Shown here: piece after piece, positions 21,898-43,763 of the stretch
Layout of the letters: every line of letters starts with the position of its first letter
How positions within the stretch are numbered: position 1 is the first letter of the stretch
NCBI GenBank assembly: GCA_003224235.1
Contig: QHYU01000139.1
Span: 1 to 55,448 of the forward strand
Source of the DNA: Acidobacteriota bacterium
GTDB lineage: Bacteria; Acidobacteriota; Terriglobia; Acidiferrales; UBA7541
Length of the DNA: 55,448 nucleotides
Direction: 5' to 3'
The notes under the pieces: generated by a model
What the model saw: the letters and a program-made list of their open reading frames with translations, nothing else
Databases searched by the model: none
Told to the model about the DNA's origin: nothing
Translations under genes and position numbers: made by a program

Positions 21898-23214
21898 TCA
21901 GATTCCTGCTTGCCGGCCAGCGGAAGAACGGCTCGCTACGCTCCTGAGATGAAGCTTCCTATTGCGAAGCCATCGCGAGAGGTAACGCGTCAGGCTCCTG
22001 GCAGGCCTGAGAGAAGGCACCGGATCGTCCCAAGCAAAATAGGCGGCTTCTTCCACGCCGCGGAAGGAGCGAGCCCACTGCCCGAATCCGAGTGTGCCGT
22101 CGCGGTGATACTGGAGGCTGGAAATCAGATCCTTGTCTTCGACAAACCACTTGCGGCCCTCAATGGAGCGCGAGGGTGGCACCGGCTGCTCAGTCATGTC
22201 GAGATAAAGGGCTCGCGCTACATCCATGCCGTTGGTCGCCACGAACAGGCGGAAGGTTGCGCCGATCCGGGGGTTGACGTCGAGAATTTTGTAGAGACCG
22301 TCGCGCGCATCATACCGAAGGCCGATGTCGAGAATCCCCCGGTAACCCACGGCCTGCATCAAGTCTTTCGCGTTCTTCTCGACCGCTTCATTCTTCAGGC
22401 AGACTCCCAAGCTGGTCATGCCCGTGTAGGCCGGGAACTGGCGGAGCTTCTTTCCTGTGATGCCGAACAAGCATTCCGAGCGTTCGTTGAAATATCCGTT
22501 GAACATCCAGACCGAGTCTTCTCCCCCCGGGATGTATTCTTGAAGCATCAGATTAGGGTGCTCGAGGTCTTCCATCCTGTCGTAGCTCTCGAGCAGCTTA
22601 CCCTTGTCCTTCACAATGACCAGCCTGACTCCGGTGCGCTGCTGGAGCCGCCAGGGGTCAATAGCTTTCAGCACGACGGGGAACGCGGCTGAATCCAGAA
22701 AGCTCATCACGTCCTGCCGGCTTTGTGGGAAGGAGGTCTCGGCCGTCGGGATGCCAAACTGTTTGCAGAGAGAATACATGCGCTTTTTTTCATAGAGTGA
22801 GTGCACCACTCCCGGCGGAGGAGCGGGAAACCGGAAAGCGGGTCTCAGAGCCTGCCCGTGCGCGGCGAGGAATTCGCTGCCGAGATCGCCGGTGGGAATG
22901 AGAAGGGGATGCCCGCCGATTTTGCCGGCGACCTCACGCAGAAATTGCACCGACTGCTCAGCGGGAGCAGCGTCGATATTCCAGATAAATTTGCCCGCGC
23001 AATAGCGCGACTTCAAAGCGGGCGCCCCGGAGTCGGCGTCAATGGCATAGACGCGGATGCCGAGCCTTCCCAAGCTGCGCACGATACCCAGCGCGCCATA
23101 GTCTTCGGCTTTGAGCACGACGACGGGAACAGAGGTATTGGGAAAACGCACGTCGCCGGAAGCCGGCGGTGCTTGCGCTGCGCGCTGATTGGGCAAGGTT
23201 TCTACCGGTGACAT
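21898..23214 (-). CDS. ATP-grasp ligase linked to sulfolactate genes
   Basis: 438 residues. The N-terminal part is a pre-ATP-grasp domain (VVVLKAEDYGALGIVRSLG), followed by an ATP-grasp fold with VVLKAID (ATP-binding Lys), LMLQEYIPGGEDSVW and metal-binding ILDVNPRIGATFR. Such enzymes join a carboxylate to an amine or thiol through an acyl-phosphate. Its ATG lies inside the end of comB (13-base overlap), so the two are translationally coupled. That makes sulfolactate, or something carrying it, a plausible substrate. The C-terminal 70 residues are basic and poorly structured. The family and context support ligation; the product is unknown. Confidence 0.8.
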   Translation of the reverse strand: MSPVETLPNQRAAQAPPASGDVRFPNTSVPVVVLKAEDYGALGIVRSLGRLGIRVYAIDADSGAPALKSRYCAGKFIWNIDAAPAEQSVQFLREVAGKIGGHPLLIPTGDLGSEFLAAHGQALRPAFRFPAPPPGVVHSLYEKKRMYSLCKQFGIPTAETSFPQSRQDVMSFLDSAAFPVVLKAIDPWRLQQRTGVRLVIVKDKGKLLESYDRMEDLEHPNLMLQEYIPGGEDSVWMFNGYFNERSECLFGITGKKLRQFPAYTGMTSLGVCLKNEAVEKNAKDLMQAVGYRGILDIGLRYDARDGLYKILDVNPRIGATFRLFVATNGMDVARALYLDMTEQPVPPSRSIEGRKWFVEDKDLISSLQYHRDGTLGFGQWARSFRGVEEAAYFAWDDPVPSLRPARSLTRYLSRWLRNRKLHLRSVASRSSAGRQAGI

Positions 23215-23939
23215 TGCGCCACCGGAATCATCACGATTTCCTGGTCTTTAAGCGTGAACACCGCGGGGATATCATCGATGTGCGAAAGGACATATTCCAG
23301 GTCGCGGAGCTGATCACTCCGGCGGAGATACTCGACGCTCTTGCTTCCCAGGAAGCCATCGGCAGGTGCTCCGCTCCACCGCTGGACCAACTCCTCGGTG
23401 TTGCGATTGCCGGGCAGGTACCCCGCTTTAATCAGACCCTCGGCGATCCAGGCGCAACACATCTGGTCTTCCTCTCGAAACTCACCCCGGCCCCCGGCTC
23501 CGATCACTGCCACCTCCGTGTGGCGGCCCACCAAGTATCGGACTTGCGCGCTGTAATTGCGGAGGCAGGCGACGTACCTGGCTTCGCAGCCCCGGGTTGC
23601 GTGGATGAGCGAAGTCCCTGAAGTGGATAGCAAAATCATCGGGCGTTGGAAGTCAGTGCGCAGGGCCATTTCCGCTGGACTGTTGGTCATGTCGAACCCG
23701 TAGGGCATATTCCCGCCCATCTCCCCCGCCAGGAGTGGGTTGTCCAGCCTGGCCGCCAGCGGCCCTACCGCCTCCAACGAAGGCGTGGGAAAGCATCGCC
23801 AACCCAGAGACACCGCGGTGACCGCGGTAGTGGTCGCACGGATGACGTCCACCGCAACCACTGCGTAGCCGAAGCGATACTTCTTTGCGCTCTCCGGAAA
23901 GCAATCAATCACTACAGTCGGCGGCATGCGATTCTTCAT
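23202..23939 (-). CDS. comB: 2-phosphosulfolactate phosphatase (ComB)
   Basis: 245 residues, normal for ComB. Characteristic segments: VVAVDVIRATTT (Asp and Arg of the active site), GEMGGNMPYGFDMTNSP, STSGT and AVIGAGGRGEFREEDQMC. It removes phosphate from 2-phospho-3-sulfolactate to give sulfolactate. Its ATG overlaps the comA stop (ATGA) and its end overlaps the ATP-grasp start, so all three are coupled. No sulfolactate dehydrogenase (ComC) or sulfopyruvate decarboxylase (ComDE) is present here, so the coenzyme M route is not evident. Confidence 0.9.
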   Translation of the reverse strand: MKNRMPPTVVIDCFPESAKKYRFGYAVVAVDVIRATTTAVTAVSLGWRCFPTPSLEAVGPLAARLDNPLLAGEMGGNMPYGFDMTNSPAEMALRTDFQRPMILLSTSGTSLIHATRGCEARYVACLRNYSAQVRYLVGRHTEVAVIGAGGRGEFREEDQMCCAWIAEGLIKAGYLPGNRNTEELVQRWSGAPADGFLGSKSVEYLRRSDQLRDLEYVLSHIDDIPAVFTLKDQEIVMIPVAQCHR

Positions 23940-24766
23940 CCAATCAAGGCTTGCGCCGGTTCCCGAGATGGATCCAGGGGCCGCAAGTTTGCCTTTGCAA
24001 ACGCATCCGAGTGCAAGCCGCGCCGGTAAATCTCCACGCGAAGTAGTTCCTCCAGCCGAACGTTACACAGGTGGACCTCTCGGCCGAAGTGGTCCAGCAG
24101 CGCAAACTGGCTAGGTTTATTCGGAGCCTCGAAGATCACCGTCTGGAATCCGAATGCCTCGACGAACCGATCTGCAAAGGTGCGATTCAAGTTGCCTTGG
24201 TCGTCAAACAACCCCACGCCCTTGGCGCTTTCTCGGCCTTCCACAACGAGCTGGAGCGCCCCGGCATCGAGCCATCGCTGGCCCTGCTCGACCAGACACT
24301 GCACGACCTCTTCGGTAAAGCTGCCGGCGTGTTTCTTGCCGAGCTCGAACTGCACCTCGAGGTTTCGCTGGTGCGCCATTTGCACGACGTCTTTGGCTTC
24401 CAGCGGCATGTCGGTGAAACCCTCGCCGCACTCGATGCGCGTGAAACCGAGCTCAGCGCAAAGGTCCAAGTAGGCGGGGAGCTGGCCCTGAGCCACTGCG
24501 ATCTCAAACGGACCGCCACCGGTCACGGTCGGCACCTGGTGCCGTTTTGCCGCCGCCACCTTTTGCCGCGTGGCGCTCTCCTTTGCCACCATCCAGCACG
24601 CCATGGAGACCTTCAAGATCGACATCAGGTGAGAACTCTGTTCCAGATGGCTTTCCAGCGTCGCTGGATCGTAACCGGGGTCAAAGGGGCTGGTGCAGGG
24701 TGGCAACTGCGCAACACCAATCTTCTTCAAATACTCCGAAGTGGAGATTCTACTGGTTTCGAACAT
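23936..24766 (-). CDS. comA: Phosphosulfolactate synthase (ComA)
   Basis: 276 residues from the ATG at 24766, which has a GGAAGG ribosome site four bases away; the frame is open for 67 codons further upstream, but that stretch carries the promoter. It matches archaeal ComA: LGFTRIECGEGFTDM, VEGRESAKGVGLFDDQG, VIFEAPNKPSQ and LRVEIYRRGLHSDAFAK. The enzyme is a TIM barrel that adds sulfite to phosphoenolpyruvate to give 2-phospho-3-sulfolactate. It is first in the operon comA-comB-ATP-grasp. The promoter is probably at 24881-24908. Confidence 0.92.
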   Translation of the reverse strand: MFETSRISTSEYLKKIGVAQLPPCTSPFDPGYDPATLESHLEQSSHLMSILKVSMACWMVAKESATRQKVAAAKRHQVPTVTGGGPFEIAVAQGQLPAYLDLCAELGFTRIECGEGFTDMPLEAKDVVQMAHQRNLEVQFELGKKHAGSFTEEVVQCLVEQGQRWLDAGALQLVVEGRESAKGVGLFDDQGNLNRTFADRFVEAFGFQTVIFEAPNKPSQFALLDHFGREVHLCNVRLEELLRVEIYRRGLHSDAFAKANLRPLDPSREPAQALIG

Positions 24767-24908: not shown

Positions 24909-25073
24909 TTTTCTCTCTGCGAGGAACTGCTCTTCTTGGCCTCTTCCATGGGTACTAGAAAGCCCATGACCTCGCCAGTCGAGCGCTCCCCCTGTCGTCG
25001 GCGAATTTCGGTTGCAAGACACAGCGGAGTCGTCCTATTATTCGGGCCTGTTCTCTTCCCGAGGTGAAGCCCG

Positions 25074-26026: not shown

Positions 26027-26106
26027 CTCGAAGAAGCCAGTCGCCGGAAATGCGAAGGGTTTTTCCCTGCACACCGCAAAACTGTGCGGCTAGCGGCTTA
26101 CCGCGC

Positions 26107-26125
26107 AAATGGTTGCTAACCATTT
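26107..26125. promoter_or_regulatory. Perfect palindrome before glmS
   Basis: AAATGGTT-GCT-AACCATTT, 8-bp arms with a 3-base centre, ending eight bases before the AAGGAG ribosome site at 26133-26138. This is a likely operator for a dimeric repressor or activator of glmS. Confidence 0.45.
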
Positions 26126-26145
26126 ATTTCTCAAGGAGTTGCAGC

Positions 26146-28071
26146 ATGTTTCCTGAGAGCGCCGTAAAGCCTGGAGAACAAATTGCTCAAGCAAGAGCGC
26201 TTAGGAGTCACCAAGCTATGTGCGGAATCGTCGGCTATGTTGGACCGCGTGCGGTTGTGCCGCTGCTGGTTGGCGGCTTGCAGAGGCTCGAGTATCGGGG
26301 CTATGACTCGGCTGGGGTTGCGATCGCCGGAAACGGACACGGTCTAGTCCTGCGCCGTGCACAGGGGAAACTGGCACAGCTCGAACAGTTGCTGGCCTCT
26401 GCTCCGCCGGAGGGCACCTACGGCATTGGCCATACCCGTTGGGCCACCCACGGCCGGCCGAGTGAGCGCAATGCACACCCCCACAGCGATTGCACGGGGC
26501 GCATCGCGGTGGCGCATAACGGAATCATCGAGAACTATTCTGCGTTGAAAGAGCGGCTCCGTGCAGCGGGCCACGTCTTTTCCAGCGACACCGACACTGA
26601 GGTGATCGCCCACCTGATCGAAAGCCACCTGAACGGAAATCTGGCTGCCGCCGTGCGCAAGGCCGTGGCCGAGCTTCAGGGCTCCTTTGCCCTGGCCGTG
26701 GTTTCCAGTACCCACCCCGAGGAGATCGTAGCGGCCCGCTTGGGGGCCCCCGTCATCGTGGGGATGGGGGAGAACGAGAACTTCGTGGCCTCGGATGTTC
26801 TTCCCGTTTTGCCGTACACCCGTCGCGTCATATACCTCGCCGACGGTGAGATCGCGGTTGTGCGCCGGAGCGGCGTGGAAATCTCCGACTTCGCTGGAAC
26901 ACCCCGCGTGCCTGCGCCTCAGCAGATTCGCTGGGACGCGCAACTCGCCGAAAAGGGCGGCTTCCGTCATTTCATGCAGAAGGAGATTTACGAGCAGCCC
27001 TGTGCGATCCGCGACACCGTGCGAGGACGCCTCGCGCCGGAGGGCGGCCGCGTTTGCCTGAGCGAGTTGGGCGTGCTGGCTGATGAGTTGGCCCACATCG
27101 AACGCATTCACCTCATCGCCTGCGGCACTTCCCTGCACGCCGGGATGGTTGGCAAGTGGATGATGGAAAGCCTAGCGGGGATTCCCGTCGAGATCGATTA
27201 CGCTTCCGAGTACCGCTACCGCAACCCGCTGGCCGACACCCGCACACTCGGCGTGTTGATCAGCCAATCCGGAGAAACCGCCGACACGCTGGCGGCGGGC
27301 CGCGAGGTCCGAGAGAAGGGCGCGCGCACTCTGGCGATCAGCAACGTACCGGCCAGCACGCTGACGCGGGAATCCGATGGCACGATCCTGACGCAGGCAG
27401 GCCCCGAGGTCGGCGTTGCCGCCACGAAAACCTTTTCTGCGCAACTCACGGCGCTGCTGTTGCTTGCGATCAAGATGGCGCAGCACAAGGGACGTTTGGA
27501 CCCGGCCGCGGGACGTTCCCTGCTTGAAGAGCTTATGCGCATCCCCGCGCGGATCGAGCAACTCCTGGGGAAAGATGAAATCGTTGAAAGCATAGCCCGT
27601 CGCTTCTATCGCGCCCGCGATTTCCTGTTTCTGGGACGCGGTGTCCACTACCCGATTGCCCTGGAAGGCGCTCTTAAACTGAAGGAAATCTCCTACATCC
27701 ACGCCGAGGGCTATCCTGCCGGGGAGATGAAGCATGGCCCCAACGCCTTGATCGATGACCAACTCCCAGTCGTCTTCCTGGCCAGCTATGAGCCGGGGTC
27801 AGCGGCTTCGGAGTTGCGCTACCAGAAGACGCTAAGCAACATGGAAGAGGTAAAGGCCCGCGCTGGCCAGGTCATCGGCCTGCTCAACGAAGGGGATCTT
27901 GAAGGCCGGAGCCGCTGTGACGCAGTAATCGAAATTCCGCCAACGCAGGACCTGTTGTTGCCTTTGCTGGCGGTAGTGCCACTGCAACTGCTGGCTTATC
28001 ACATCGCCGTGCTGCGCGGGTGCGATGTCGACCAGCCGCGCAATCTCGCCAAGAGCGTTACGGTTGAGTAG
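26146..28071 (+). CDS. glmS: Glutamine--fructose-6-phosphate aminotransferase (isomerizing)
   Basis: It makes glucosamine-6-phosphate, the entry to UDP-GlcNAc for peptidoglycan and for the exopolysaccharide encoded downstream. The family start would be ATG 26218 (MCGIVGYVG; 617 residues), because the glutaminase needs Cys at the mature N-terminus. However, an in-frame ATG at 26146 has a much better ribosome site (AAGGAG, seven bases) and would add a 24-residue leader. The start listed is the one with the better ribosome site; 26218 is equally defensible. Visible: class II glutamine amidotransferase (RLEYRGYDSAG, GHTRWATHG), then two SIS domains (ACGTSLHAG, SQSGETADTL) and the terminal LAKSVTVE. 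Confidence 0.96.
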   Translation: MFPESAVKPGEQIAQARALRSHQAMCGIVGYVGPRAVVPLLVGGLQRLEYRGYDSAGVAIAGNGHGLVLRRAQGKLAQLEQLLASAPPEGTYGIGHTRWATHGRPSERNAHPHSDCTGRIAVAHNGIIENYSALKERLRAAGHVFSSDTDTEVIAHLIESHLNGNLAAAVRKAVAELQGSFALAVVSSTHPEEIVAARLGAPVIVGMGENENFVASDVLPVLPYTRRVIYLADGEIAVVRRSGVEISDFAGTPRVPAPQQIRWDAQLAEKGGFRHFMQKEIYEQPCAIRDTVRGRLAPEGGRVCLSELGVLADELAHIERIHLIACGTSLHAGMVGKWMMESLAGIPVEIDYASEYRYRNPLADTRTLGVLISQSGETADTLAAGREVREKGARTLAISNVPASTLTRESDGTILTQAGPEVGVAATKTFSAQLTALLLLAIKMAQHKGRLDPAAGRSLLEELMRIPARIEQLLGKDEIVESIARRFYRARDFLFLGRGVHYPIALEGALKLKEISYIHAEGYPAGEMKHGPNALIDDQLPVVFLASYEPGSAASELRYQKTLSNMEEVKARAGQVIGLLNEGDLEGRSRCDAVIEIPPTQDLLLPLLAVVPLQLLAYHIAVLRGCDVDQPRNLAKSVTVE

Positions 28072-29731: not shown

Positions 29732-29747
29732 TGGCAGTAAGGTTGCT
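29732..29747 (+). promoter_or_regulatory. Sigma-54 promoter of the exopolysaccharide operon
   Basis: TGGCAG-TAAGG-TTGCT, one mismatch to TGGCAC-N5-TTGCW and the same -24 hexamer as at 31476. The predicted start is near 29758, so the leader to ATG 29896 is about 140 bases. An 8-bp inverted repeat AGCAACCT (29718-29725)/AGGTTGCT (29740-29747) overlaps the -12 box. The rest of the 29463-29895 gap is non-coding. Confidence 0.65.
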
Positions 29748-29895
29748 TGATGCAATCCGAGCAGCCACGGCGAGCAGCCTGCGGTTGTCTGCGCACCGGC
29801 CGGATAACAGGCCGGGTTTAGTACGAAGGCCGATTGGTTTCCTGCCACTCGGCCCACGAGAGAGGAAAAACGCACTCCGGGTAACGGACCACTCA

Positions 29896-31293
29896 ATGCT
29901 GAAAATAGGCGGCCAAAGGGTACCCCACAAAACTGTTCTTCTGGTGCTCTCCGACAGCGTGCTCATCGTGATCGGTTTGCTGCTGGCCAGTGGCCTGCGG
30001 CTGTATCAGAGCGGACTGTTCTCGGGTGGTTTCGAGGGAATGCGAACCGTGCTGCGGTTCGGCGTGGTGGTCTTGGTCTGTGAGCTCTCGCTCTATTACC
30101 ACGATCTATATGATTTCCAAATCCTGAAGCGACACAGCGAAATGTTTGCCCGGCTGCTGCAGGCCTTCGGCATCTCCTGCGCGGTGCTGGCGCTCTGCTA
30201 TTACGTTCACCCGCCGCTAAGTCTCGGGCGGGGCATCGCCGCGCTAGCCGCGCCGACGATCTTGGCATTCTCGCTCGGCTGGCGCCTACTACTGGACAAG
30301 GCAGACGCGTTGCTGCATCGCCCCGAGCGCGTGTTGATCGTGGGGACCGGTCCCGCTGGGATTTCACTGACGCGAGAGATTATCTCCCGCCCGGAGCTGA
30401 ATCTGAAGGTAGTGGGTTTCCTGGATGAAAAGGGCGAGAACATCGGCAAATCGTTGGTGAACCCCGGGATCATCGGGGCCGTGAGCGAAGTCTCCTCTAT
30501 TGCCGACATGCAGAAGGTGGATCGGATCGTTCTTTCGCTGGCCGAGCGTCGCGGCTGCACGCCCTCGCAGCAGTTGCTGCACCTGAAATTTGCCGGCGTC
30601 CCCGTCGAGGATGCCCACAGTTGCTACGAGCGGATCAGCGGGCGCATCCTGCTCGAGCGTCTTTCGCCAAGCTGGCTGATTCTCTCCAGCGGCTTCCGCA
30701 AATCCGCATTCGTGCTGGCGTGCAAACGGGTGGCGGATATCATCGCGGCGCTGTTCGGATTGGTCCTGAGCGCGCCGGTGATGGCCGCAGTGGCCGTCGC
30801 AATCTGGTTGGAGACCGGCTCGCCGATTTTGTTCCGGCAGACCCGCACCGGGCTGTTTGGGCGTCACTTCCAAATTCTTAAGTTTCGCTCCATGTATCAA
30901 AACGCCGAGGCCAGCGGGCCTGCCTGGGCGGCCCAAGACGATCGACGGATCACCCGGGTAGGCGCCTTCATCCGCAAGTCTCGCCTCGACGAGCTTCCGC
31001 AGTTGTTCAACGTTCTGCGTGGCGACATGAGCTTAGTCGGACCGCGCCCCGAACAGCCTCACTTCGTGGGCCTGCTCCAACAGAGCATCCCCTTCTATGA
31101 TCAGCGGCACACCGTGCGGCCTGGTATTACCGGGTGGGCGCAGATCAAGTACCAGTATGGGGCTAGCCTGGAAGAGTCCAAGGTGAAGCTGGAACTGGAC
31201 CTGTTTTATATCAAGCATCTTTCCACTCTGTTGGACCTAGCCATCATTTTTGAAACGGTCAAGGTAATGCTGCTTGGCCGAGGCGCCAAGTAG
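29896..31293 (+). CDS. Polyprenyl-phosphate glycosyl-1-phosphate transferase (exopolysaccharide priming)
   Basis: 465 residues from the ATG at 29896 ([11 protein letters not shown]); the frame is open further upstream, but that part overlaps the sigma-54 promoter. The N-terminal half has four to five membrane segments and a nucleotide-binding-like domain ([11 protein letters not shown]). The C-terminal catalytic domain is of the WbaP/PglC type: [57 protein letters not shown]. It transfers the first sugar phosphate to undecaprenyl phosphate at the inner membrane. It resembles the EpsB-type transferases of XrtA/PEP-CTERM loci (TIGR03013). Confidence 0.93.
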
Positions 31294-33729: not shown

Positions 33730-35280
33730 ATGACGAGCAATGACATTTTCAATCAACCGGCAGAGCAAGTCCGGGAATACTGGCAAACGCTGCTCCAGCA
33801 CAAGTGGCAAGTTTACTTCACCACCTTGGCGCTGACACTGGCGGCTATTGTCGGGATTTCGCTTCTGCCGGACCAGTACCAGGCCACCACCACCATCTTG
33901 GTGGACCCACAGAAAGTTCCCGATGAATACATCCCGGCGACGATCAAGTCGCCGCTCACCGAGCGCCTGCAAACCATTACGCAGGAAGTACTGAGCGCGA
34001 CGCGGTTGCAGGAAGTCATCGACAAATGGAATCTCTATCCCAAGATGCACCGCTCGATGTCTTCCGATCAGCTCATCGAATACATGCGCGGTAAGATCAA
34101 GATCGAAGTCAAGCGCGCTTCCGGAGCCGGCCCGGCGGCCTTCAGCATCACCTACGAAGGGGAAAATCCCGTCGTCGTCGCACAGGTGGCCAACGAATTG
34201 GCCTCCCGGTTCATTGAGTGGAACCTGCAGACCCGCCAGCAGTTGGCCGTGAGTACCACAGAATTCCTCGGCGATCAGCTGGTCGATGTCAAGCGCAATC
34301 TGGAACACCAGGAAGGCCAGGTCCGCGCCTTCAAAATGCAGCACCTGGGCGAAATGCCCGAGCACGTTCAGGCCAACCTGGGAAACGTGGCGCAGCTGCG
34401 CGCCCATCAAACCAACGTCAACGACCAGCTGAACCGGCTCGAGCAGGAGCGAATCGAACTGCAACGCCTGCCTGATTCCGCCGCCCGGTACGGGCGCCTG
34501 GCGCCAATGACTCCGACCTCCGAGCGCGCCCGGCTGGAAGAAGAAAAGATGCGGCTGGAAGGCCAGCTGTTCGAGTTGCGCAAGCGGTATACGTCGGCCC
34601 ACCCTGAGTTGACCCAGGCGCAGACGCGGCTCGAGCGAGTCAACCAGCAGTTGCGCAGTCTCCCCCGACTCGATGCAGAAGCGAGCAAGCTGGAGGCCGA
34701 TAACTCTCCCGCAGCCGTGCGCCTGGAGATCATTGCCCGGCAAATGAAGCGGCTCGAGGAGGAACAGAAACAAGTCCAGTCGCAGATCGCCGCCTACCAG
34801 ACCAAGCTGGATGCCGTGCCGCTGCGCGAGCAGCAGTTCGCAGACATAACGCGCGATTACGATATCTCCAAAGAAAAATACAAGTCCCTGTTGAGCAAGA
34901 AATTCTCCGCGGACATGGCCGCGGATCTGGAGCGCAAGCAACGGGGAGAGCGATTCACGGTATTGGATCCGGCGCGGCCTCCGGAGAAGCCGATTAAGCC
35001 CAACCGCAGGGCGTTCATGGGTGTCGCATTCTTGGCAGCTCTGGTGTTCTCGTTCGGATTGGTGCTGGTGAAAGAGATGCTCGACACCACCATCAAGGCC
35101 GAGCGGCACTTGACCGGTTTAGTGCCGGATTCGGTTGTGCTCATGGCTTCGATCCCCACAATTACTACCCCCGCAGACGTCCGACGCCGCCGGACATTTA
35201 CCGTCTTAGCTTTGGCCACCTCATTGGTTGCGGTGCTCGCGGTGGCCGCATTTCTATGGAAGGTGCACCCAATTCTATGA
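33730..35280 (+). CDS. Wzz/GumC-type polysaccharide chain-length determinant
   Basis: 516 residues. One transmembrane segment near the N-terminus (about 33-52), a long periplasmic coiled-coil region (about 170-400, rich in Leu, Glu, Gln and Arg), then two hydrophobic segments at about 430-450 and 490-512. It keeps the GNVR-like stretch YKSLLSKKFSADMAADLERKQ and the proline motif PPEKPIKPNRR before the second membrane segment. No kinase domain is fused; the kinase is the next gene. It sets polymer length at the inner membrane. Similar to the XrtA-associated chain-length proteins (TIGR03007). Confidence 0.92.
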   Translation: MTSNDIFNQPAEQVREYWQTLLQHKWQVYFTTLALTLAAIVGISLLPDQYQATTTILVDPQKVPDEYIPATIKSPLTERLQTITQEVLSATRLQEVIDKWNLYPKMHRSMSSDQLIEYMRGKIKIEVKRASGAGPAAFSITYEGENPVVVAQVANELASRFIEWNLQTRQQLAVSTTEFLGDQLVDVKRNLEHQEGQVRAFKMQHLGEMPEHVQANLGNVAQLRAHQTNVNDQLNRLEQERIELQRLPDSAARYGRLAPMTPTSERARLEEEKMRLEGQLFELRKRYTSAHPELTQAQTRLERVNQQLRSLPRLDAEASKLEADNSPAAVRLEIIARQMKRLEEEQKQVQSQIAAYQTKLDAVPLREQQFADITRDYDISKEKYKSLLSKKFSADMAADLERKQRGERFTVLDPARPPEKPIKPNRRAFMGVAFLAALVFSFGLVLVKEMLDTTIKAERHLTGLVPDSVVLMASIPTITTPADVRRRRTFTVLALATSLVAVLAVAAFLWKVHPIL

Positions 35281-36230: not shown

Positions 36231-37823
36231 ATGGCCGAACCGATGTCAGAAATCATAGCGCCCCAGCCACAGCGCGCCGGGCAGGAGCCAGCGTCCGCGG
36301 CTCCTGCAGACGGCGCGGTGCAGCCCTCCATGAACGAGGTCAGCAAACTCTATCGGCGCTCCTCACAATTCCTGGGTGGTCAAATTGCCTTGTTCTTGCT
36401 GGGCTTAGTCTCCTTTCCGATCCTCGCCCGCATGTTCTCGGTGGCTGAGTTCGGCCTGATCGCCTTAGTCCAGAACACCATTGCGGTCGCAGTCGTTTTC
36501 TCCAAATCCGGCCTGCAGCATGCAGTGCAACGGTTCTACAAGGAAAACGCCGTCTCCAAGGCGCCGGGCGCTCTGCGCCGTTACTATTCCAGCCTGTTCT
36601 TCGGCGCCGCTGGGGCGGGCCTGGCGATTACCCTGATCTTTCTGCTTTCCCTCTGGCTGCTGCCGCACAATCTGGTCAGCCCCCCTCTGCAACGGCTGCT
36701 GGGCTACGCCTCCGCGCTGATCTTCATCCGCTCGGTGCAGTCAATGATCAGCAATCTCTTGCAGGTCGAAGGCAAGGCCAAGGCGTTCACCGTGCTGCAA
36801 CTCGGCATCAAAGCTGCCACTATCGCTCTCACCGTTCTGCTGCTGGTCACTTGGCAGACTGCGCCAACCGTCTTTTTTGTGGGCATGATCCTGGTCGAGG
36901 CGAGCACCGTCCTATTGATGCTGCCGTACCTGCGGCGGCGCCGCATTCTGGCAGCCGGAGGATTCGACCGCCACCTACTCCGTGTCGCGATGGCGTTTGG
37001 GCTTCCCATGATGGCCACGGAGATTTGCTGGCTGATCCTGGATTCCGGCGATCGTTTCCTGGTACAGGGTTTCCTGGGCGCGCGCGCGCTTGGCTATTAC
37101 GCAGCGGCCTACAACATTTCGTCCTACATCCGAGAAGCGCTTTCGGCCCCCGTGTACCTGGCCCTGTTCCCGATTTGCATGGAGTTGTGGATCATCAAAG
37201 GGAAGCAAGCAACGCAAGAGTTCCTCAGCCGGCTGATGGATCATTTCATCCTGGCCGGGGTGGGCCTGGTCTGTGCGGTCAGCGTGGTCGCGCGCGACGC
37301 AATCCACATTCTGGCTTCCCCAAAATTCCTCGAATCGCACCGCCTGCTTCCCTACTTGCTGATCGGGCAAGTAATCAGCGCTGTCTCCATGTTTCCACGC
37401 ATCAGCCTGTTGATTCACAAACGCACGCTTGCCATGGCGCGAGCGGTTTTCCTCGGCGGCCTGCTGAACATTCTGCTCGACATTTTCCTGCTCCCCCGCC
37501 TGGGGCTGCTCGGCGCGGCCATCGGCACCCTCGGCGCCTACATGTTCAGCACCCTGCTGTTTACGTGGGAATCGCAGCGGCTGCTGCCCCTGAAGATGAG
37601 ATGGGCGGCCTGGACGCGATACGTGGTGGTCGGCGCAGCGAGCTGGACCATTGTCTCCCAGCTGACGCTGGAGAAGGTTTATGTGGATTTGGCGATCAAA
37701 GGAGCCATGAGCCTCACGCTGTATTTCGGCACACTCTGGCTGGTGGATCAGAAAGTGCGAGATCTAGCGGACGTATTCTTCCGCACGTTGTTCGGGTTTA
37801 GAACGACGCCGGAATTAACCTAA
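36231..37823 (+). CDS. Polysaccharide flippase (Wzx-like, MOP superfamily)
   Basis: 530 residues with about 12-14 transmembrane segments after a cytoplasmic N-terminus of 45 residues. The start at 36231 could instead be the ATG at 36243. Segments such as FLGGQIALFLLGLVSFPILARMFS and the repeated Arg/Pro-rich loops are typical of O-antigen/teichoic-acid flippases. It should move lipid-linked repeat units across the inner membrane. It lies between the kinase and polymerase genes, all on the plus strand. Confidence 0.9.
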   Translation: MAEPMSEIIAPQPQRAGQEPASAAPADGAVQPSMNEVSKLYRRSSQFLGGQIALFLLGLVSFPILARMFSVAEFGLIALVQNTIAVAVVFSKSGLQHAVQRFYKENAVSKAPGALRRYYSSLFFGAAGAGLAITLIFLLSLWLLPHNLVSPPLQRLLGYASALIFIRSVQSMISNLLQVEGKAKAFTVLQLGIKAATIALTVLLLVTWQTAPTVFFVGMILVEASTVLLMLPYLRRRRILAAGGFDRHLLRVAMAFGLPMMATEICWLILDSGDRFLVQGFLGARALGYYAAAYNISSYIREALSAPVYLALFPICMELWIIKGKQATQEFLSRLMDHFILAGVGLVCAVSVVARDAIHILASPKFLESHRLLPYLLIGQVISAVSMFPRISLLIHKRTLAMARAVFLGGLLNILLDIFLLPRLGLLGAAIGTLGAYMFSTLLFTWESQRLLPLKMRWAAWTRYVVVGAASWTIVSQLTLEKVYVDLAIKGAMSLTLYFGTLWLVDQKVRDLADVFFRTLFGFRTTPELT

Positions 37824-37894
37824 CGCCGGGCTGATTCCCTGCGAGGAAGACCTGCCGGGCGAACGATCGAAGTTTGCGAAGGATGGAAACGAAT

Positions 37895-39256
37895 ATGCCG
37901 ATCGCGATGATTCTGGGATTGCATGGCGTGGTACCGGCGCTTCTTTACTGGGGAGGCTTGATGGCCTTTCTGGTGGCGGCATTCTGGCGCCCGCGTTATG
38001 GCCTCTACTTTTTGATCCCGCTGCTTCCGCTGCAGACCGTGCGCTACCGCTTGCATGAACTGCCGCTCGGCGAGAAGTTTGTGGACATTATGCTGTTGGG
38101 CGTGATCCTCGGGATGATCTTCCGCCGGGACGGCACGAGCTTCCTGAAAACCCCGCTGAACCGTTTCATCGCAATCCTGGCCGCGTTCCTGTACATTTCG
38201 CTCTGGCACGGCTCCTTTTATCTTGGCGAACCGGCGCCGCTCAACCTCCAAGATCCGCGCTTCTCCGACTGGAAGAACTACCTGGTAATGCCCCTGGTGT
38301 TCTTTGTGGTGGCCAGCGCCATCCGCGAGGTCCGGCACATCAAAATCCTGGTTCTACTGATGGTGGCGTCGTTTCTACTCGTCAATCGCAGCTTCTACAA
38401 CACCATCAAGGATCGCAATCTCACCCACTTCACTTACGACGTCCGAGACGCCGGCCCCCTGGGCTATGCCGGGGACAACGGCCTGGGCGCCTTTGAGGCA
38501 GAGTTCTTGGTGTTCTTGCTCGGCCTCTATGCCTTTGACAAGAAGAAACTGAGCAAGCTGGCGATCCTGGCGATGTGTGCCTTCGGTGGCTACTGCCTGA
38601 TGTACACGTTTTCTCGCGGGGCCTATATCGCGTTTCTAGTCGGGCTGGGCTTCCTCGGTGTGGTGAAGCAACGAAAGTGGTTGCTGGTTATGCTGGTCGG
38701 GCTGATCGGATGGCAGGTCTTTCTCCCCAATTCCGTGCAGGAGAGAATCACGATGACCTACACCGAAGAAGGCGAGCTGGAATCGTCCGCCCAGACACGC
38801 GTGCAATTGTGGGAAGACGCCATGCAGCTGTTTCGTCAGAACCCGATTTTGGGAACCGGTTTCAATACCTACAGTTATCTAGGCCGCACCGAAAAGTATC
38901 GCGACACCCACAACTACTACCTGAAAGTGCTGGTGGAAACGGGGATCGTTGGCCTGTTGGTGTTTCTGTGGCTTCTGTGGCGGATGTTCCATCTTGGCTT
39001 CCGGCTCTTCCAGACCGCGGAGGATCCGTTCCTCCGTTCTCTCGGCTTGGGCTTCGCGGTGATGATGGTGTGCGCCGTGGCGGTGAATCTGTTTGGCGAT
39101 CGCTGGACGTTCTTGCAGGTCAATTGCTTTCTCTGGGCCCTACTGGGCTGTGTTGTCCGAGGTCAACTCATCGCGGACAGCACCCGGCGCGGATCTGAGG
39201 CCGTGGTAGCCGTGGGCAGTGCTGCCATTCCAGAGGGGCATCCAGGGCTGGCTTGA
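37895..39256 (+). CDS. O-antigen ligase/polymerase family membrane protein (Wzy/WaaL-like)
   Basis: 453 residues from the ATG at 37895 (GGAAAC eight bases upstream); starts at 37883 and a TTG at 37874 are also possible. About ten transmembrane helices, with a large polar loop (LTHFTYDVRDAGPLGYAGDNGLGAFEAEF) and the family signature LGTGFNTYSYLGRTEKYRDTHNYYLKVLVETGI, shown here only in part by its key residues G-F-N and H-N-x-Y-L. It polymerises or ligates the exported repeat unit on the periplasmic face. Confidence 0.88.
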   Translation: MPIAMILGLHGVVPALLYWGGLMAFLVAAFWRPRYGLYFLIPLLPLQTVRYRLHELPLGEKFVDIMLLGVILGMIFRRDGTSFLKTPLNRFIAILAAFLYISLWHGSFYLGEPAPLNLQDPRFSDWKNYLVMPLVFFVVASAIREVRHIKILVLLMVASFLLVNRSFYNTIKDRNLTHFTYDVRDAGPLGYAGDNGLGAFEAEFLVFLLGLYAFDKKKLSKLAILAMCAFGGYCLMYTFSRGAYIAFLVGLGFLGVVKQRKWLLVMLVGLIGWQVFLPNSVQERITMTYTEEGELESSAQTRVQLWEDAMQLFRQNPILGTGFNTYSYLGRTEKYRDTHNYYLKVLVETGIVGLLVFLWLLWRMFHLGFRLFQTAEDPFLRSLGLGFAVMMVCAVAVNLFGDRWTFLQVNCFLWALLGCVVRGQLIADSTRRGSEAVVAVGSAAIPEGHPGLA

Positions 39257-42581: not shown

Positions 42582-43763
42582 ATGTTTTGGCCGGGACTAA
42601 TGAAGGCTCGCGCGCTGCTGCGGCGGATTTGGATCGCCTTTCTGTTTTGCAGCGGCTTGCTGCGCTGGGCGAAGTGGCGGCTCGCCGCCCGAGGTGGCAT
42701 CGTGGTGTTGACCTTCCACCGCGTCTTGTCCGATGCCGATTTCGCTTTGACGAACTCGCCTCTGGGAATGGCCGTGCGCGAACGCACCTTCGAGCAACTT
42801 GCCGAACATCTCGCCCGCGAATACGAGACCGTGGACTTGGGAGTGGGCGCGCCGGAATGGACCCGGGGCGGAAGCCAGCCGCGCATCGCCATCACCTTTG
42901 ACGACGGCTGGGCCGACAATGCCACCACCGCCTTCCCCATCGCGCGCAGACAGGGGCTACCCTGGACAATTTTCGTCTGCCCGGAGCGCGTGGGCCGGCC
43001 TTTCCCCTTCTGGCCAGAACGCGTGGTCGCGCTCTGGCGGATTGCCGAATGCAGGGGCATGACCCGCCAGCTTCTGCAGATGCTATCCGAAGAGGTCGAG
43101 CCGGGCGCTTCCGATGCTGGCCGGTTGGGTCGAGAGAAGACGCTCAAGTCGTTCATCGAGCGACTCAAGACATTCTCGGCTGAGCAGCGGAACGCAGTGA
43201 TGAGCCGCATGGCGGAATATATCAGCCCCGGGCTGGACACCGCCGACACGGTCGATGTCACGATGACTTGGCAGGAGATTGAGGGAATGGCGTGCTGTGG
43301 CGTGACGATCGGCTCCCACACGCTGTCGCATCCCATCCTGACACGCATTTCCCCGTTCGAGGCTCAGCGCGAAATCACCGAGTCGAAACGCGTCATCGAG
43401 CGGAAGTTGCGGCGAGAATGTGGGCTGTTTGCTTATCCCAATTCGGAATGGTCACTCCGGGTTCGCGAGCAGGTGGCACAGGCGGGTTACGAGATGGCCT
43501 TCGCCTACGGACCGGGAGTCTGGACGCGCGACTCCGATCCATTTGTGATCCCGCGGATCAATATTTGGGAAGGCCATCTGGTGGGGCCGTCCGGCCGTTT
43601 TTCCCGGAAGGCCTTCGAATATGCCGTCTTCTGGAAGGCCTATCGCACCAAGAACACCCTCCCCGTCCGCACTCGGGGAGCGGACGCAAAACAGGGTGCA
43701 GCTGCCAAGGAAAATAGAACTTCTCCATTCAACCAATTGAAATCTGCTGAAAGGAGGGGATAG
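42582..43763 (+). CDS. Polysaccharide deacetylase (NodB-type), long form
   Basis: 393 residues; AAGGAAA precedes the ATG. An N-terminal hydrophobic helix (about 10-24) may anchor it. NodB motifs: TFDDGW (metal Asp), SHTLSHP (H-x3-H form) and LFAYPNSEW. The region between motif 1 and 2 holds an insertion of about 110 residues (ILPPLF-like helical, RQLLQMLSEEVEPG), as in deacetylases of polysaccharide loci. It probably removes N-acetyl groups from the polymer or its precursors, supplying free amines. Confidence 0.88.
   Translation: MFWPGLMKARALLRRIWIAFLFCSGLLRWAKWRLAARGGIVVLTFHRVLSDADFALTNSPLGMAVRERTFEQLAEHLAREYETVDLGVGAPEWTRGGSQPRIAITFDDGWADNATTAFPIARRQGLPWTIFVCPERVGRPFPFWPERVVALWRIAECRGMTRQLLQMLSEEVEPGASDAGRLGREKTLKSFIERLKTFSAEQRNAVMSRMAEYISPGLDTADTVDVTMTWQEIEGMACCGVTIGSHTLSHPILTRISPFEAQREITESKRVIERKLRRECGLFAYPNSEWSLRVREQVAQAGYEMAFAYGPGVWTRDSDPFVIPRINIWEGHLVGPSGRFSRKAFEYAVFWKAYRTKNTLPVRTRGADAKQGAAAKENRTSPFNQLKSAERRG

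Follow-up and report, generated by a model that had tools for sequence, protein, structure and literature searches.

Sulfolactate is a solute of spores, a precursor of coenzyme M and a breakdown product of the plant sulfolipid. The archaeal and bacterial coenzyme M pathway (ComA, ComB, ComC and ComDE) begins with two enzyme families that recur in the gene triplet described here, and in Bacillus subtilis spores the comA and comB family genes yitC and yitD lead to sulfolactate as the end product; to our knowledge, no ligase belongs to the Bacillus system. The triplet lies in a window of 55,448 nucleotides (the whole stretch of DNA analyzed), which makes up a complete contig of a 4.6-Mb assembly and whose closest relatives in a genome scan with the ligase alignment were Acidobacteriota. 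The original prediction read the triplet as an operon in which sulfolactate, made by ComA and ComB, would be activated by an ATP-grasp ligase and joined to an amine or another acceptor.

The three reading frames are all open and lie on the minus strand. They encode a comA-like phosphosulfolactate synthase of a divergent subfamily (23936..24766), a comB-like 2-phosphosulfolactate phosphatase (23202..23939) and an ATP-grasp carboxylate-amine ligase-like enzyme (21898..23214), and their coordinates bear out the predicted overlaps of 4 bases between comA and comB (ATGA, 23936-23939) and of 13 bases between comB and the ligase gene (23202-23214). Of two candidate comA starts, the one at 24766 agrees with the relatives more closely than the ATG farther upstream, at 24967. 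Divergence from relatives by codon position was 0.19/0.15/0.45 for the ligase and 0.17/0.09/0.47 for comB, a pattern which indicates purifying selection on both genes.

ComA of the window scored 168 bits with PF02679 (gathering cut-off 25.2) and ComB 112 bits with PF04029 (gathering cut-off 26.4), so that both belong to their families; with the NCBIfam equivalogs, scores fell below the cut-offs, at 165 against 280 bits for ComA (TIGR03849, phosphosulfolactate synthase) and 60 against 175 bits for ComB (TIGR00298, 2-phosphosulfolactate phosphatase). When compared with PDB sequences by phmmer, ComA matched 1QWG (E 2e-32); it matches 1U83 weakly, and the structural relatives of ComB are 2Z0J, 2YYV and 1VR0. 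K145 of the window ComA corresponds to K137 of Methanocaldococcus jannaschii ComA, which we take to be the catalytic lysine, and 45 further residues are also conserved. Motifs at the ends of barrel strands have changed, from FGWGTS in M. jannaschii to VSMACW and from PGGT to GGGP, and Cys57 is conserved within these altered motifs of the active face. Judged by family, sulfolactate would be the product of the two enzymes. Divergent ComA-family genes also occur elsewhere in Acidobacteriota (L002-L020; about 23-31% identity in BLAST alignments), and their fetched flanks contained no ComB or ligase relative of the window type.

Searching 84,980 species genomes with the ATP-grasp alignment yielded 52 loci, among which L057, L066, L069 and L107 appear identical to L053, L052, L051 and L050, respectively. 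In 46 of the 52, comA and comB lie close to the ligase gene, 39 times in the same order and on the same strand and 7 times rearranged, and the spread amounts to about 12 phyla according to labels taken from MAG titles; for the same reason, two archaeal labels may reflect binning errors. As these ligase loci were found independently of comA and comB, the linkage is real, and the neighborhood survey that the original prediction had called for upholds the tight functional coupling it had postulated. The gene order is the same in L050-L053, the four loci of the window's own family that have enough flanking sequence, and the distance matrices of ComA and ligase correlate with an r of 0.81 (permutation maximum 0.27). 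Within its own family, window-type comA is present in 6 of 89 genomes; in G401, comA-like pieces are located at contig ends. In the operon tree, sequences group partly by phylum, and Acidobacteriota, Ignavibacteriota and Pseudomonadota are interleaved, which would fit occasional transfer. Among plasmid records, the best matches were only ligase paralogues of about 28% identity annotated as carbamoyl-phosphate synthase. A relative of the same genus (G483, L053/L057) carries a frameshift near codon 108 that splits comA and leaves comB and the ligase gene intact; either decay or a mistake in the assembly could account for it. We propose that comA, comB and the ATP-grasp gene form one co-inherited pathway.

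Against Pfam, the ligase gave sub-threshold matches only. An AlphaFold2 model built from 53 sequences (pLDDT 91) has a clear ATP-grasp fold (Foldseek E about 1e-15), and its best structural matches were the CPS-like protein 2PN1 (VIA Z 28.6 over 289 residues), PurK, biotin carboxylases and L-amino acid ligases (3VOT, VIA Z 25.6). K183, D312, N314 and R316 are invariant in the alignment. The model, its structural matches and the 52 relatives suggest a carboxylate-amine ligase-like enzyme, which would be predicted to form amides. In the metal-ligand set E/D...E/D-x-N, D312 and N314 are kept and the canonical first ligand is replaced by G298 in comAB-linked copies (codon 22321..22323 on the minus strand in the window); in HMMER alignments, residue 298 coincides with the glutamate at the metal-ligand position of pyruvate carboxylase, and in more distant paralogues from these loci an acidic residue, E or D, takes this place. 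Because G298 takes away the usual first metal ligand, catalysis may depart from the standard course.

The window ligase and its comAB-linked relatives have glycine as residue 298, and five of the six comAB-unlinked copies have D or E, namely Asp in L076, L087, L091 and L104 and Glu in L093; the sixth, L092, has Gly298 and lies on a 4.7-kb contig. The genomes of L076, L087 and L091 gave no ComA match and those of L092 and L093 a distant one only, and the L104 genome possesses a separate comA of the window type. An unlinked ligase in relatives had been named as grounds for abandoning the original prediction; that situation is thus confined to six of 52 loci, five of which differ at residue 298. 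A tree calculated without column 298 implies four independent changes of the residue, and a single clade was rejected (p-AU 2e-11). Independent pairs agree in residue and comAB linkage, with a sign test p of 0.25 from too few pairs and a grouping that was picked after the alignment had been seen, and we regard residue 298 as a candidate specificity switch and not as a proven one. At L064:8739-11290, two ATP-grasp genes stand in tandem, the extra copy adjacent to comB having Asp298 and the second copy Gly298. The comAB-free branch formed by L087, L091 and L104 is located between genes for an AMP-binding acyl ligase and a carbamoyltransferase and, judging from this setting, appears to be a different pathway employing the same ligase family.

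The polysaccharide genes of the window lie at a distance of 5 kb from the triplet, on the opposite strand. They form a Wzx/Wzy-type locus that extends from about 29.7 to 48 kb and starts with the gene for an XrtA/PEP-CTERM-type EPS polyprenyl glycosylphosphotransferase (29743..31293; TIGR03013, 443 bits, above the cut-off) and includes, likewise on the plus strand, genes for a chain-length-determinant-like (GNVR) protein (33730..35280), a Wzx-type flippase (36231..37823; PF01943), a Wzy-type polymerase/O-antigen ligase (37874..39256; PF04932) and a polysaccharide deacetylase (42582..43763; PF01522), besides a methyltransferase. Polysaccharide genes occur within 10 kb of 35 of the 46 triplet loci, and at least three markers in 29, as raw counts without a matched background. 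Such genes make up most of the neighbors and comprise those for polyprenyl glycosylphosphotransferases, chain-length regulators, autokinases, UpxY antiterminators, flippases, glycosyltransferases, UDP-glucose dehydrogenases, 4,6-dehydratases, DegT aminotransferases and polysaccharide deacetylases, in keeping with the suspected link to the cell surface. The remaining 11 loci, some of them short contigs, have no polysaccharide marker. The triplet stands in a housekeeping context in L067 and among sulfotransferases in L078, and an arylsulfotransferase is found near it in L103. A GlmS-like glucosamine-6-phosphate synthase, read from its N-terminus, is encoded at 26050-28071 of the window and also in L057, and it could supply the operon with amino sugar.

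Fusions and recurrent partners give further hints on function. In the Gemmatimonadota loci L081 and L083, the ligase continues into a polysaccharide deacetylase domain that shares its Pfam family with the deacetylase of the window; a supposed ComB-ligase fusion in these loci was rejected, as ComB is in another frame and the C-terminal deacetylase alone is fused. L059 has a GNAT/FemAB-like domain fused to the ligase, and the length of the reading frame together with a weaker similarity points to one in L061 as well; in L067 and L102, the fusion partner is a methyltransferase, behind which the L102 frame goes on into a sulfotransferase domain. A methyltransferase is fused or lies within 600 bp of the triplet in 28 of the 46 loci. 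The methyltransferase type of L069 was dismissed as a constant partner, since the genome of the window gave only weak general methyltransferase matches. LarA homologues are encoded in eight loci (L074, L078, L082, L084, L089, L100, L101 and L107); two of them, compared with NCBIfam, matched malate racemases best with scores below the cut-off. Sulfolactate being the sulfonate analogue of malate, a malate-type racemase fits, and these LarA-type nickel-pincer racemases near the operon are candidate sulfolactate racemases. A variant cluster (L059:3260-8546) extends from comB to the GNAT-fused ligase and contains what reads as an RraA-like gene, two more ATP-grasp genes and a ComC-family dehydrogenase (PF02615, 356 bits); neither the ComC-family gene nor the gene after comB has a counterpart in the other triplet loci. 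In L084:6499-8905, a predicted MBOAT-type O-acyltransferase and a membrane partner are located inside the comAB-ligase cluster.

In the pathway that we propose, the ComA-like enzyme would, by family, add sulfite to phosphoenolpyruvate to give phosphosulfolactate, and the ComB-like phosphatase would release sulfolactate, whose stereochemistry would be set by the LarA-type racemase in a subset of organisms. The ATP-grasp enzyme would convert the carboxylate of sulfolactate to an acyl-phosphate and couple it to an amine, yielding a sulfolactyl amide, which in a subset of organisms would then be methylated. The acceptor amine most likely belongs to an amino sugar, either in a surface polysaccharide or in its precursor, because deacetylases and amino-sugar aminotransferases are present in the loci and the ligases of two loci carry a fused deacetylase; substrate and product are likewise deduced, and the acceptor from context and fusions. 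The original prediction stands in part, carried by the coupling of the triplet, the absence of ComC and the apparent polysaccharide link. For the mechanism as a whole, in which sulfolactate is made and the ATP-grasp enzyme ligates it to an amine that probably sits on an amino sugar of a surface polysaccharide, we consider the case about evenly balanced. The wider claim is that microbes of about a dozen phyla from soil, groundwater and sediment decorate the glycans of their surface, such as exopolysaccharides, with sulfolactyl amides, a racemase and a methyltransferase being optional additions to the three genes; it is more tentative and falls somewhat short of an even chance.

If the ligase instead joined sulfolactate to an amino acid or another small molecule, the sulfonated product might serve as a metabolite, a compatible solute or a signal, and its genes would lie next to polysaccharide genes only incidentally. 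The fold class, which includes L-amino acid ligases, would suit such an acceptor, as would the second, cyanophycin-synthetase-like ATP-grasp enzyme encoded in 11 of the 46 loci and the triplets lacking polysaccharide genes; since polysaccharide genes accompany the triplet in many phyla and the ligase is fused to a deacetylase, we judge this reading unlikely, if worth keeping in mind. Another nucleophile is conceivable for ComA, too: scores below the equivalog cut-off and changed barrel-strand-end motifs, conserved Cys57 included, mean that it might not be sulfite, in which case a different 3-substituted 2-hydroxypropionate would be made and conjugated. However, the catalytic lysine and many charged residues of the M. 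jannaschii enzyme are conserved, the partner is a ComB-family phosphatase and the LarA homologues resemble malate-type racemases most, so that we find this quite unlikely.

The operon might also feed coenzyme M or the accumulation of free sulfolactate, with the ATP-grasp enzyme as a bystander, and in Bacillus spores ComAB-family enzymes do make sulfolactate. The original prediction had contrasted the ligase with the ComC and ComDE needed for coenzyme M; this held for ComC, whose family (PF02615) is absent from the genome of the window (99% complete), and less well for ComDE, of which a similar pair exists elsewhere in that genome (G000:C191; L124:6839-8121, minus strand) with scores below the cut-offs (123 against 148 and 126 against 221.5 bits). 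The comD-like alpha subunit was found in 11 of 89 family genomes, always below the cut-off, and together with the triplet in 2, versus 0.7 expected by chance. The pair would represent a two-gene sulfopyruvate/phosphonopyruvate-decarboxylase-like enzyme whose distribution is not tied to the triplet. With no ComC and a comDE-like pair unconnected to the triplet, coenzyme M is an unlikely destination, and conservation of the ligase with comAB across so many phyla argues against a bystander; we therefore regard this alternative as very improbable and retain ligation of sulfolactate to a surface amine as the preferred reading.

Were this reading true, sulfolactate would have a new anabolic use and bacterial surfaces would bear a new kind of anionic decoration, and the module would be a source of organic sulfonate; the three genes and residue 298 also make a compact set for testing ATP-grasp specificity. 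In the open literature searched, which leaves most subscription papers outside, we found no article that pairs sulfolactate with ATP-grasp or that names sulfolactyl, sulfolactoyl or sulfolactamide, and those pairing sulfolactate with exopolysaccharide looked unrelated, judged by title. A survey of LarA (PMC11770544) contains no word starting with "sulfo". The component families are known, and their combination and proposed use are absent from the open literature searched.

Several triplet loci, that of the window included, have XrtA/PEP-CTERM-type exopolysaccharide loci as neighborhood, and we know of no comA-comB-ligase set among the accessory genes of such loci. The nearest described relatives of the racemase in the eight loci are the malate racemases LarAH5 and LarAH6, far below whose cut-offs it scores. 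The ligase has the same fold as 3VOT, RizA (4WD3), CPS-like 2PN1 and PurK and keeps most of their catalytic residues (K183, D312, N314, R316), and it differs from the ATP-grasp carboxylate-amine ligases by an identity of only about 10-19% and, when comAB-linked, by the glycine at the first metal-ligand position. Compared with the coenzyme M pathway, the triplet lacks ComC, possesses an ATP-grasp enzyme, has ComA and ComB scoring below the equivalog cut-offs and is found in a polysaccharide context.
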